From assembly GCA_963931865.1 (NCBI GenBank), contig OZ007513.1, forward strand, positions 6,804,157-6,868,156: a stretch of 64,000 nt of DNA, read 5' to 3'. The translations under genes and the position numbers were made by a program. Source of the stretch: Axinella damicornis. Lineage: Eukaryota; Porifera; Demospongiae; Axinellida; Axinellidae. Below, piece by piece: positions 3,536 to 64,000 of this stretch. The notes under the pieces were generated by a model. That model did no database searches. It saw only the letters and a program-made list of their open reading frames with translations, and was not told the DNA's origin. Position 1 is the stretch's first letter; the number at the start of each line of letters is the position of its first letter.

Positions 3536-3660
3536 CCCTTGATATATACATGTATAATGGTTGCTGTAGTGAAACATATTGGGGTTGCAACGCCTACCAG
3601 GAGTGCGGTTGCCCCTCGATATACACATGTATAATGGTTGCTGTAGTGAAACGTATTGAA
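3536..3660. repeat. Local direct repeat and dispersed TTGCAACG repeat
   Basis: ACATGTATAATGGTTGCTGT followed by AGTGAAAC occurs twice, about 80 bp apart. The spacer GTTGCAACGCCTACCAGGAG with TGCGGTTGCCCCTCGA is repeated at about 7466-7502, and more loosely at 12829-12862. I see nothing else in 3253-4705 beyond purine-rich runs near 4180-4240 and 4440-4480. Confidence 0.7.
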
Positions 3661-4731: not shown

Positions 4732-6443
4732 GACCGTCCCTCCATCCTCCCTTCCTAAGTTTGTTTCAGATTCTTCAGAGACACTCCTGCTGGGTGTTAT
4801 ACTCATACTGGACTACGCAGACATGTCTCCATCCGTCTGTGTCCCTCCTCCCTGGTCATGGCAAAGGGTGTGGGTGTGCCTTCACTTGATACCATGCCCT
4901 CCTTCAACACATCCAGGTCTGGGAGGGATCACACAGGGGTACGGCCATAATCACATAACCTAGCTGTTCAGAACCAAATCATAACACGTACGCACCCATG
5001 AGTGAGTTCATCATTGTACATCACATTAATATGTCTGCATAGCCTTGTTTTAGGGCCAAGAAACTGGCTTTGCAAAATGCACCTAGCTCCAAAGGATCTC
5101 ATGATGGGAACTCTGTAATGAGTCTCCCAACAATCTTTGGCAGTCAGCCAATGCATCATGGAGAGACAATGATACACTTGTGCACTAAATTAGTAACACA
5201 CTACTGGGGATTGGCTTAATCTTTTGCGTGGTCGTTTCACGCTACTTCCCTTCTTCTGCTCTTTATGTCGACCATTATGTGCTCCTGGTACCATGCATAT
5301 TGGAACATGTACCATGCATATTGGTACCCTACAGAACATGGGAATTCACCTTTTGGCATAACTGTGATTAACCCAGGAGTCTACTTCAGAGAGCATCCTT
5401 CAAGTAGGCGTGGTTGTGAATACCAACTGGAAATCCCTACTGATTGGGACAGAAATACATCCTTGCATGTGTACGTGTGATGATCGATGGTTAATCCACA
5501 CCACGTAATGGGCCTTTTTCATTGAACTACAAAGTTCACAACATTTGGGGGGCAAGACGTTAACCCCCCAAAGACTACTGTACTGAGGTCCATTGGGCTA
5601 AACTTCCAGATTATATAACTGCACGACCAAGAAACCAAGCTTCCTGAATGTAGCAACTCAACAATGCAAACTATTGTTATGGACCTGTCCAGCATTCCTA
5701 TAGTAGACACGTCCAGCTCACCTGCTTGCTGGCTTCTCCTCCGGACCATTACCCAGTCAACCCCCTCTGCCCTGGTCAACTTGCTCTATACGGACGATGA
5801 CTTTGCCCCAGCGTCATCCACCACCTTGGTCTCATCAAGGGAACCTTTCTTAACGGGGTCCTCACGCAGAATCTCCAGGTTAGGAGGTCAGTTAGTCACG
5901 CCCCCAATACAATGACATCAATGGATTCACTATGTGGGGGGACAGGATCCAGAGTCTGTGGGTGGAAAGACGGAGGGTGAGGGAGGTGTGGAGAGAGGAG
6001 AGGAGGGAGGGCGGAGGGAAGAGAGGAAGGAGGCGGACGGTGAGGGGTGAAAAGAGGGAGGAGAGGATGGGGAGATGGAGGGAGGGAGGGGTGGAGGGAG
6101 ACGACAAGGGGATGAGAGGACACGTAAGAACTTTATGCATGCATGTACAACTCAGAGCTGAATCAGAGAACGCGGTAGCGTTCTCTATTTAGGGATGGTC
6201 AAGGAAATTTCGATTTTACCATACTGATGCACCAGCAGGATAACGGCCAACGAAGATGCAACCCCTCAAACCAAGCATGCAGACAGAATGATACTGCCTA
6301 GCAGTTCACAAAAACACTTACAAACGTACCCTAGAGTACGCGGGAGTCGATGAACAAGTCGCGGAGAAAAGTCCGATTTCGTCATCTTCTTCTTTCTTTC
6401 TTTCTTTCTCATACAAGACTTTGTGTAATGATAGCTTACCAAC
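4732..6443. other. No supported gene; polypurine tract at 5936-6112
   Basis: Several frames of 60-86 codons occur, but none has a domain. From 5936 to 6112 the plus strand is almost only G and A (GGGAGG and GAGAGGAGAGG words), a polypurine tract able to form triplex-like structure. A CT-rich TTTC microsatellite lies near 6391-6409. Confidence 0.6.
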
Positions 6444-7150
6444 TAAACCACTTCTTGAGCTAATTTACGCACAGGACAACACCGCTATCGCCGTAGCACT
6501 CGCCCTGACCACTTTTGTCTGCAAACTGGCAAGACCAGCAGTTATAGCTAGCTACGATCCGATGGCATTCTAGCACGACGCCATTTTGAGGCAATGAGGT
6601 CACGCGTTCGCCAATTGCGCACGCGCAATCCAAATGCAAGCGCATTTTGTGTTCTTTTTGCTTGTGATGGCTGCGTTTGGTACACTAACAGAATCCTTGT
6701 GAATCCGTCGTCTGGTGGTTCCTACCGCTATGAGGAATTTCTACCAACCTGTTCTTGTCAAGATCTATCGTGACTCTGCCATCATGGAGGCGTGGCTTTG
6801 TTTTCATGACGTACAGTGCAGAACGTCTGACCAACACTGTGAGGCTAGAGTTTTGAACGTACTTGGAGCCATTGCAAGCACATGACCTACATGACTGCCA
6901 TCGAGCTCTCTGATCTGATGAAGGGTGAGCCCCACCCCATGTCCGCCCCGCAAAGACAACACTAAACATTCATGACAACATTACACTCCTGGTAGGGGAA
7001 AAATTGTGCCGCGTAAATAATCTAAATAAATAATTAATTAAATAATCAAACCTCACAGCACGCAGGAAAGGTCTACAGAGATTCTGACTACACAGTCGTG
7101 ATTGCTATCATGGAGTGACACGACCACACAATAATTGTGGGGAAACTCAC

Positions 7151-60771: not shown

Positions 60772-61210
60772 GCTACATGCCAGTTTGCAATGATGCAGAG
60801 CTGAAAATTGATGTGTATTGGTTGGTCAACTTCGATTTTGCCCCGCCATTGATCGAGTTGCTTTGGTTGTCCGATTATAAATTGGTGTAGCTATGCACAA
60901 GTGAATAGAAACATTACTTTTAGGCAGGCTAAGTAGAAAGATAGAACAGAAGGCAGCTGAGCAGAACTAGCCAATCAGAACTCCCAGGGAAAGAGCACAT
61001 CCTGAACCAAGATGTTCAGGGGCAGATCCAGGAAAATTTATTAGAGGGGGGGGGGGACACTCCCCCTTGATGCTGCCACATCTTGACACTGTGCCACCAG
61101 CATTAGTGCTACAGAACAATCAGGTGACCATCAGGTCCTCCTCGTCCCACTCCAGAGTCCGTCGTGTTTCCCCCAGCCCTGGTCTCGGTGTCCCCTCTGG
61201 TCTGGGGAGG

Positions 61211-61276
61211 ATGGTGGTGGGAGTGATTCTACTGTTGTTGGTCCTCAGTGGGGACGTGGAAACTAACCCAGGACCT
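61211..61276 (+). other. Hydrophobic leader fused to a 2A ribosome-skipping motif
   Basis: From the ATG at 61211 the frame reads MVVGVILLLLVLSG and then DVETNPGP (61253-61276). D-V/I-E-x-N-P-G-P is the defining 2A motif: the ribosome fails to join the last Gly and Pro, releasing the upstream peptide and continuing from Pro. NLR proteins of sea urchin have been reported with such motifs at the N-terminus, doubling as a signal peptide, so the protein goes either outside the cell or, after skipping, to the cytosol. Here skipping would release a product beginning Pro-Val-Gly just before the DEATH domain. An in-frame ATG at 61067 would give a longer, less hydrophobic start. Confidence 0.85.
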
Positions 61277-61692
61277 GTCGGTGAGTTTAGTGTCGTGTTG
61301 TATTTTTTGTATACTAATTATGTGAACAATGGTCATACTTGTCTGGGTTGGAAGTGTACGGTGTGGAATGTGTAATGTACCCACTCAATGACTCAGAGTA
61401 TTCCTGGCAGATGTCATGGCGTGAATGTGTTCTTACGTATGTGCAAATTATTGGAAATGCTAAGCGCATGAGAGACTCACAAGGGAATTCAACTCTGTTT
61501 GGGCCTGTCAGGGAAGTGTGCTGCTGGTAGCAGTATAGCCTCGTAGTGTTGTCCTGATAGACCTGCAGTTGCTGTTTCTTGAAAACATCACACATTCGAC
61601 ACAAAAATTTCATCTTTCCTCTTATGAATGCATAATTAAGCACAAGCCATGTCAAAATAGTGAGAACCAGGCCTTCTCTGTTTATGTCTGGC

Positions 61693-61760
61693 TAGTCTGA
61701 TACCAGACCCTCCACACCCTCACACGTGGGAGGGTGTGGGAGGGTCTGGTTACGGAGACT
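61693..61760. mobile_element. TAGTCT-type foldback in intron 1 of the 2A NLR
   Basis: TACCAGACCCTCCACACCCT pairs with AGGGTGTGGGAGGGTCTGGT. The outer TAGTCTG and GGAGACTG are family ends. TGTCTGGC and TGTCTGAC flank it, a probable eroded duplication. Confidence 0.6.
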
Positions 61761-62335
61761 GTCTGACCTGAGAACAAAGCTATCCCCTCTAATCCAATTA
61801 TGTACTAAGCATGTGTTGTTTCTTGTTCCTGGAGTGTATTCATGGGAGTGTCAGGTTGCCTCCTGATAACACTCTGCATATGTGTACCAGATGCTTATGA
61901 ATTCACACAGAGTCATGGCAATCAGCTGAATGCTAAACAGGTTACTTTCATCCCCTCAGGGCAACTTACACTGGAAGATCTGAGTGAAGTGAGGGGAGCC
62001 TTGTATGAGGCCCGTGCCAAGTGGTACCATATTATCGGAGTTGAGCTGAAGCTTTCGGTAGGAACACTGAATGCCATCAGATCAGAGTTTCCTGACAAGA
62101 ACGACTGCAACACTGAGATGTGCAGTCACTGGTTGAGACGTATCGACCCCTGTCCCTCCTGGGAAGCTCTGACTAAAGCGTCCTCCTGTGGGGGAGGGAC
62201 ACCTGGCCCAGCAGCTGAGGGACAAGTACTGCCCAGGAAGAGAGGAAACAATACCCCACGTCTACTACACCCCAGGACCATCACCCGCTGGTGCCCCCCC
62301 CCTCACAAGGTAGCTAGCCCAGTGTATTCTAGTCC

Positions 62336-62572
62336 TGTCACGCACTGCAGTCGGTAGTAGTGATCTGTGAGTGTACTGTGTGGTACTGTCACAGACTGAA
62401 AATTGATGGCAGTCGGTAGTAGTGATCTGTGAGTGTACTGTGTGGTATTGTCACACATTGACAAATGATGGCAGTCGGTAGTAGTGATCTGTGAGTGTAC
62501 TGTGTGGTACTGTCACACACTGACAACTGATGGCGGTCGGTAGTAGTGATCTGTGAGTGTACTGTGTGGGAT
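62336..62572 (+). repeat. Intronic minisatellite, about 64-bp unit, four copies
   Basis: GCAGTCGGTAGTAGTGATCT followed by GTGAGTGTACTGTGTGG recurs four times, with small differences in the spacer (ACTGTCACAGACTG, ATTGTCACACATTG, ACTGTCACACACTG). It lies between exons 2 and 3 of the NLR-like gene. Each unit contains GTGAGTGT, a donor-like word. Confidence 0.95.
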
Positions 62573-64000
62573 GTTTAGAGTCATTGTACTGGCAAACCTG
62601 CATACATGTTCTGTGACCACACACTCCTCTGTCTCCCTGCAGTACCAATTGGTGAGTCTCCTTTGACAACGACACTGGCATCCCTCCTGCTGTGATACTT
62701 CCCACCTCACAAGTGACCACACCTCCTCACCAGCCCACGCCAGGGCACGCCGGTATGTCATTTGTAACAGTGTGTCGCTATATGCAGGATGCACGTTGCC
62801 TACTCCTCACTGAAACAGGACCATGCTTTGTTGCTATGTATTTCTGTAGGTGGTGGAGTAAATAACTTGAGCTGGTAGTGTTTGACGGTTCTTAATCAGA
62901 GTGTGAAGGTTATTGTGCTTGCATTTTGGAACCATTCCGACAAGCTACATGTAATTTGGAACTCAAGAATTACCATTAACGTACGTTTGAAGGCTCCATG
63001 CAGTTTTGGAACCATACCAACTAGCTGTATGTAGTTAATTCGAATTACCATAAGATAATTAATGTATACACTGAATCCATTCAGGTTCCACTACGCTACG
63101 CAATGTGGCAGACCAAGTTGAATACTTTGAGACTGAATTTGCCAGTCTTGTCGACAAAGCTTGTCACGATGTGAGGAAAAGAGATCTGGAACCCTCCATC
63201 TTCCTCTCCCGAGTTACCACCCTGCGAGTATCCAACCGTACCGAGCATCGAAGCTTCATCCAGGAGAATTTCCACCCCCAGTAACGTTCGAGAAGATCTG
63301 GTCGCGTCTCACCATTTACCGGGACTAGATGAACTATGGACTTCTGGAACAGTCATCAACAAATTGGGAAGTGAAGACTTGAAACATCAGATGCAGGTCT
63401 ACTTGCAGGAATTGTCCACGTTCAAGGACAGAACTCAGCTCTGTGACTTCATTGATAGCTGGCCGTGCAAAGATAACAGGCCATCGGAAGACGAAATAAA
63501 GAAAATAGTCATCAAAATGAACCACGAATGGATGAAGTGCACACTGCAAGATGTGGAATCATTCAGAAAGAACGGCTCTCATTCACAAGTTCTTCCTACA
63601 AGAATTTGACGTAATCCTCCAGAATGCTATCAGGGGGTGTGTCTGTGTCACATGGCTCACCTCTCCCTCTACTGCCACACTACTGCAGCAGAGTTCTCCA
63701 AGGAATACAGCATTGAGGCAGTGACCGTCGATGGTCAGGACATCTACCTCATGTCTGTCAAGAAGTACGGTGGCTACCTGAGGGAGCTGTACACCTCAGA
63801 AAGACCGCTAGTGGGTGTTGGCCCTCCTACCCCAACTGAAAAGCTCCTCCCCTTCAAGTGAGGCAGGATCGTCGTGGAGAAAATTGACCTGCAACATGCA
63901 GATCACTTCACCAGGAGATATGTACAGGGAGACCTAGACGATGTGGACTATTCTAAAGGTATTGTTTACAAGAAGTCTCCAATGATTTTAGCTATCAGAA

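Follow-up and report, generated by a model that had tools for sequence, protein, structure and literature searches.

A 2A leader exon in phase with a DEATH-type exon in the sponge Axinella damicornis: a dispersed pseudogene copy and the leader-exon family to which it probably belongs

In Strongylocentrotus purpuratus, a 2A sequence is present in about 35% (85/241) of the NLR proteins, where it ends, with D(V/I)ExNPGP, the short hydrophobic N-terminal leader of DEATH-NACHT-LRR receptors from a large family; according to the available part of that report, the sea urchin leader gave about 80% skipping in vitro and, with skipping mutated, brought a reporter to the Golgi (Roulston et al. 2016, PMC4981915). 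In viruses, 2A (or StopGo) splits polyproteins and, as far as the accessible sections of a survey go, one upstream class consists of L-rich motifs in which (A/S/C)G stands before Asp, and an example of motif class 6 was active in vitro (PMC12846837). Besides, the sequence in front of a 2A can have an inhibitory effect on the reaction at the translocon, as stated in the available portion of another study (PMC2978324). Regarding sponges, a literature search covering few subscription papers returned no report of 2A leaders in NLRs, and the part of a sponge NLR paper that is available mentions neither a signal peptide nor skipping (PMC12909245); text matches to '2A-like' in PMC5890393 refer to a gene name and not to a 2A peptide.

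The window considered here, i.e. the whole stretch of 64,000 nucleotides analysed, lies at C9:6804157-6868156 (contig OZ007513.1) in the genome of Axinella damicornis (226.5 Mb in 120 contigs), and the leader that a first-pass annotation had placed in it is confirmed to the base. The coding part of the leader exon (61211..61280, forward strand) comprises 22 codons, MVVGVILLLLVLSG-DVETNPGP, after which come a Val codon and the first base of a codon for Gly. Its first 14 codons (61211..61252, forward strand) encode the hydrophobic segment MVVGVILLLLVLSG, with a highest 9-residue Kyte-Doolittle mean of 3.5, which looks signal-peptide-like and also resembles the L-rich element known before many 2A cores; LLVLSG before the core matches those L-rich classes in which (A/S/C)G precedes D, as far as these are described in the available text (PMC12846837). 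The 2A octamer DVETNPGP occupies 61253..61276 (forward strand), with the skip predicted between Gly (61271-61273) and Pro (61274-61276). With D(V/I)ExNPGP at 61253-61276, a hydrophobic tract upstream and 22 codons from the ATG at 61211 to the octamer Pro, the leader has the features of the sea urchin type, in which the octamer lies within about 26 residues from Met. The likeness to viral upstream motifs 2 and 6 concerns the same core, an LLLLSG-like motif and D at p12 in the part of the source available, while the 2A here closes the N-terminal leader of a cellular gene instead of splitting a polyprotein (PMC12846837).

The leader exon ends at a GTGAGT donor at 61281, and intron 1 (61281..61959, forward strand, phase 1) runs to the acceptor CCCCTCAG ending at 61959, so that the splice is in phase with a DEATH-type exon from 61960, in agreement with what the first-pass annotation had proposed for a 2A leader joined to a DEATH exon. 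Since the leader and DEATH blocks align with those of paralogues and most of the sequence between them does not, both exon borders are comparatively supported. A second in-frame ATG lies upstream in the window copy, at 61070; the stretch above the leader ATG is interrupted by stops in several paralogues, and the leader ATG itself is retained in 39 of 40 matches.

The leader, donor and acceptor remain whole in the window copy. The DEATH exon (61960..62309, forward strand, donor GTAGCT at 62310) is decayed: a gap of 8 bases, seen in none of the five aligned paralogues, lies between 62179 and 62180 and breaks the DEATH frame. The window DEATH peptide returned no Pfam family at E<=1, and thus no match to Death (PF00531), which was found at E<=0.01 in two of 40 relatives; a profile of the relatives compared with solved structures gave two weak rows, both PIDD-type death domains (E 0.16 and 0.23), and the six-helix death fold of a DEATH domain was recognised. 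Downstream, the remnant of an NLR exon with several frame changes occupies 63085..64000 (forward strand), its start being set by comparison with the paralogous locus L014. Its matches follow the L014 frame in frames 3, 2, 1, 2, 3 and 1 and then jump from residue 419 to residue 820, cutting the NACHT domain, which corresponds to residues 328-480 of the L014 frame; beyond the window they extend as far as about C9:6868698, and they lack the middle of the receptor. As read from its letters, the window carries a dispersed pseudogene copy of the 2A-leader family, which cannot make the receptor. The broken DEATH frame, together with an NLR exon disrupted by frame shifts and a large deletion, rules out a working NLR gene in the window, and the earlier idea that its mRNA would yield an immune receptor falls with it. 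A 62-base tandem repeat of 3.6 copies (62347-62569) is also present 3' of the DEATH exon.

A DNA query covering 61180-61290, octamer included, gave 40 scored matches among 67 candidates, the window among the 40, and 35 of the 40 lie in an array at C4 4.24-5.15 Mb. All 40, the window copy counted in, retain D(V/I)ExNPGP and the GTGAGT donor. It is in L014, as far as read, and not in the window, that such a leader heads an intact NLR, with the leader at 3579-3648, the DEATH exon at 5311-5667 and a third frame that opens at 6850 and runs to the locus end, in which NACHT (E 5.9e-17; residues 328-480) and LRR are found; the leader, DEATH and NACHT-LRR exons are intact and both introns are in phase 1. 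A DEATH match was obtained in 12 of the 13 array-type loci read at length (L012-L023 and L028), the exception being L022, with none in the stretch examined. In protein data, a search of 187 proteins for a frame fusing leader and DEATH found the octamer in none, as expected from the intron separating the two; leader-only frames do occur, 24 of 25 with the octamer, P0211 being without it and P0190 reading as the window's own. Within the array-type copies, L076 and L080 keep the octamer and donor and have lost the hydrophobic core. The receptor frames of L012, L013 and L020, about 1070 amino acids long, are without Walker A in a motif pattern search, with a Pfam LRR match in L012; these may be NLR-like members that lost nucleotide binding.

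A genome-wide search gave 211 sites for a degenerate octamer pattern versus one for the reversed control pattern. As many as 196 of the 211 were placed and 113 site records were read at base level, with 62 of the 196 and nearly all of a minisatellite on C6 lying outside this reading. A donor scoring at least 6 is found within 25 bases at 100 of the 113 sites and is in phase 1 at all 100; the remaining 13 comprise nine sites followed by a PHD-type frame, one more from L041 and three without a good donor. The donor scan was first run to the next stop and later restricted to 25 bases, the wider scan giving equally scoring GTs of another phase 56 (L042) and 33 (L094) bases on. By blastn (E 1e-3, 30 bases; PHD-type sites, L041 and L046 excluded), 102 sites fall into 18 DNA groups. 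The best donor within 25 bases is in phase 1 in 18 of 18, at 1, 4, 7, 10, 13, 16 or 19 bases, against a chance expectation of one in three per group, the groups being partly dependent: L080, for instance, has an array-type octamer and donor behind altered upstream DNA. The peptide LLIVAG before the core is common to groups 2 and 6. With leaders of this kind heading both NACHT and ZU5/Roc-type genes, the earlier suggestion of a movable cassette gains support from this phase rule. With 100 leader-plus-donor and 10 retrotransposon or minisatellite sites among the 113 read of 211, the sponge would provide a second, large cellular case of 2A beside the sea urchin.

Downstream of the leaders, a DEATH-like frame was found by eye and BLAST in all eight groups examined, though not at every site. 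None is present in the pieces examined of L022, L043 and L047, the DEATH match of L043 beginning just beyond the end of the piece, at C1:10927643. Pfam Death was matched above its cut-off in L031 (3e-7), L090 (4.4e-7), L092 (8.8e-7), the second DEATH of L025 (6.5e-6), L029 (7.8e-6) and L091 (8e-5), and below it in L037 (2.4e-4), L024 (0.005), L042 (0.0079) and L039 (0.016), while the C10 exon of L089 gave no Death match with Pfam. With at most two acceptors shown per DEATH exon, the nearer one is in phase 1 in 17 of 17, and the best-scoring one in 14 of 17 (exceptions L024, L031 and L037); in L040, the best-scoring acceptor is followed by a stop. NACHT matches lie downstream of leaders on C2, C4, C7, C10 and C14. 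In the group at C4 5.7-8.8 Mb, L025 contains additional DEATH frames along with a ZU5 domain (E 2.3e-5), and L026 a GTPase (MMR_HSR1 2.9e-5; Roc 1.1e-4, below its cut-off); since ZU5 and GTPase were found at separate loci within the group, one gene combining ZU5 and Roc is suggested rather than seen. Compared with the sea urchin NLRs, for which the available text gives no exon structure, the leaders of this other animal form a separate exon whose phase-1 donor lies 1-19 bases beyond the 2A, in 18 DNA groups, and stand also before DEATH exons of ZU5/Roc-type genes (PMC4981915). In other words, the principle is already known from the sea urchin; the exon cassette, the phase rule and the use outside NLRs are new as far as the literature consulted goes.

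The association with receptor genes also appears in the placement of the sites. Among the 103 scored NACHT matches (of 243 candidates), 23 have a same-strand 2A upstream within 20 kb, 11 of them within 5 kb, against none of 103 with an opposite-strand 2A upstream within 20 kb; the same-strand 2A found downstream in 6 of 103 fits a head-to-tail array. A random-placement control at 20 kb (200 draws with 175 sites, 196 having been placed later) gave a mean of 0.77 and a maximum of 4. Regarding DEATH exons, 145 of 150 rows were kept in a cross-match (150 scored of 736 candidates, five second-fragment rows being dropped), and the Pfam Death model over the genome gave 150 scored of 980 candidates. 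The 59 exons at least 60% identical to that of L014 include 45 with a same-strand 2A within 3 kb upstream and none with a 2A within 3 kb on the other strand or downstream; at 7 kb, the figures for the same 59 are 48 same-strand upstream versus two upstream on the opposite strand and two downstream. Among more distant DEATH matches, 12 of 86 have a 2A site within 7 kb. Conversely, 41 of the 46 2A sites of the C4 array have a DEATH match within 8 kb downstream. In 11 of the 59 close DEATH exons no 2A site lies within 7 kb upstream, and the leader may there be absent, changed or replaced; four of these 11, 91-92% identical, are clustered at C8:8763243-8909677.

Quite probably, the window leader belongs to a large family of 2A leader exons heading DEATH exons, in which skipping would give a cytosolic receptor and its failure a secretory-route one. 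The anatomy, the constraint on the octamer, the phase-1 cassette and the association with DEATH exons are read directly from the DNA; from these we infer skipping, ER targeting, their ratio and their purpose. In the intact genes, the leader exon would be spliced via the phase-1 intron to the DEATH exon heading a NACHT-LRR receptor, and like leaders would precede DEATH exons in genes that carry ZU5 or Roc-type GTPase domains. Once about 21 residues are translated, the 2A would block the Gly-Pro bond, the leader being released and translation continuing, and most of the receptor would begin with Pro and remain cytosolic. Where the Gly-Pro bond is formed, the hydrophobic leader would be retained and may route the receptor into the secretory pathway. 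As the ribosomal exit tunnel is longer than the leader, the latter should still be inside it at the break, and the decision to skip would thus depend on the leader and on the state of the ribosome, before any contact with the signal recognition particle or the ER.

A serious competitor, held to be possible though less likely than not, keeps the skipping and supposes that the leader is never a signal: the L-rich stretch would serve the 2A reaction, and the benefit would be a trimmed N-terminal Pro, a released leader peptide or a brake on the translation of a cell-death receptor. That proteins with DEATH, NACHT or Roc domains normally stay in the cytosol suits this explanation, as does a leader shorter than the exit tunnel at the break. 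Phase-1 introns are common after signal peptides, and signal-peptide exons typically have one directly behind them, as the leader does, which speaks against a leader that never acts as a signal and would equally be found with a plain signal peptide. The L-rich stretches ending in (A/S/C)G, with their active class 6 member, again favour a role in the 2A reaction, as far as the source is available (PMC12846837), and the sea urchin counterpart, a signal for the secretory route once its skipping is abolished, runs counter to it within the same limits (PMC4981915). Regarding the dual-fate receptors, we lean slightly towards skipping as the standard, selected first step for at least dozens of DEATH-led receptors (NACHT-LRR as well as ZU5/Roc), the phase-1 2A leader exon being an exchangeable cassette in which leader changes would set the cytosolic versus secretory share. 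The leader family constitutes a natural library for separating the requirements of the 2A reaction from those of ER targeting, and why an animal places a skipping signal before cell-death receptors becomes a testable question.

Over 33 haplotypes, the six fixed codons of the octamer show pS 0.321 and pN 0.000, only Val or Ile occurs at its position 2, and Thr, Ile, Arg or Ser at x; in the hydrophobic part of the leader, pS is 0.110 and pN 0.016. Judging from this pattern, the octamer peptide is kept by selection, with the cautions that the query contained the octamer and that the array copies are not independent, being near-identical paralogues that may undergo gene conversion. The excess of silent change argues against a plain signal-peptide exon without skipping, whose octamer would be kept only through recent duplication or gene conversion of array copies, an explanation rated as improbable even though the largest DNA group gathers 57 of the 102 grouped non-retrotransposon sites. 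The DNA-separable leader groups all end in the octamer, which is admittedly the search key, and the octamer pattern with its first Pro changed to Ala has no site in the genome, two further points against it.

Reportedly, in work of Odon et al. in 2013, 2A sequences occur in APE-type non-LTR retrotransposons, with the same octamer and L-rich residues before it as in the leaders here, followed, unlike here, by PHD and endonuclease in one frame and by no DEATH exon. That the octamer is a relic of such an element is highly improbable: L048 does have a single frame combining 2A, PHD (E 1.2e-6) and endonuclease (E 3.8e-10), and the 2A-PHD form is found at 9 of the 113 sites read (three of them in L041, as units of the C6 minisatellite), but from 61277 on the window has a donor, an intron and a DEATH exon, with neither PHD nor endonuclease. 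An unsystematic look noted no retrotransposon stretch beyond the octamer in the DEATH-led loci read. A distant origin of the leader 2A by exaptation from a retrotransposon is possible.

Some other elements carry the octamer. Retrotransposon-type frames with the 2A immediately before a PHD-like stretch occur in L044, L045, L048, L095, L106 and L108, Pfam having been run on L048 alone. The minisatellite (C6:9399531-9404022, with L041 at C6:9403400-9405400) proceeds in steps of about 128 bases or multiples, its units carrying a 2A octamer and, after it, the start of a PHD-like frame, with one unit reading EVEANPGP; it is apparently made from a piece of retrotransposon. At L011 (C1:5418000-5426500), eleven leaders LLIVAG-D(V/I)ETNPGPIS stand in tandem, nine of the ten steps being of about 690 bases and one of 270, and represent either alternative first exons or a repeat array. 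Lastly, a further codon form, GAYATNGAGACCAACCCNGGCCC, is present in L046 (C4:8528300-8530300) and at C2:11824404, C4:5654950, C4:8754460, C6:10313115 and C8:6793092; L046, the sole site of this form that was read, is without a leader, and four of these six sites have a 2A leader site about 9-17 kb away.
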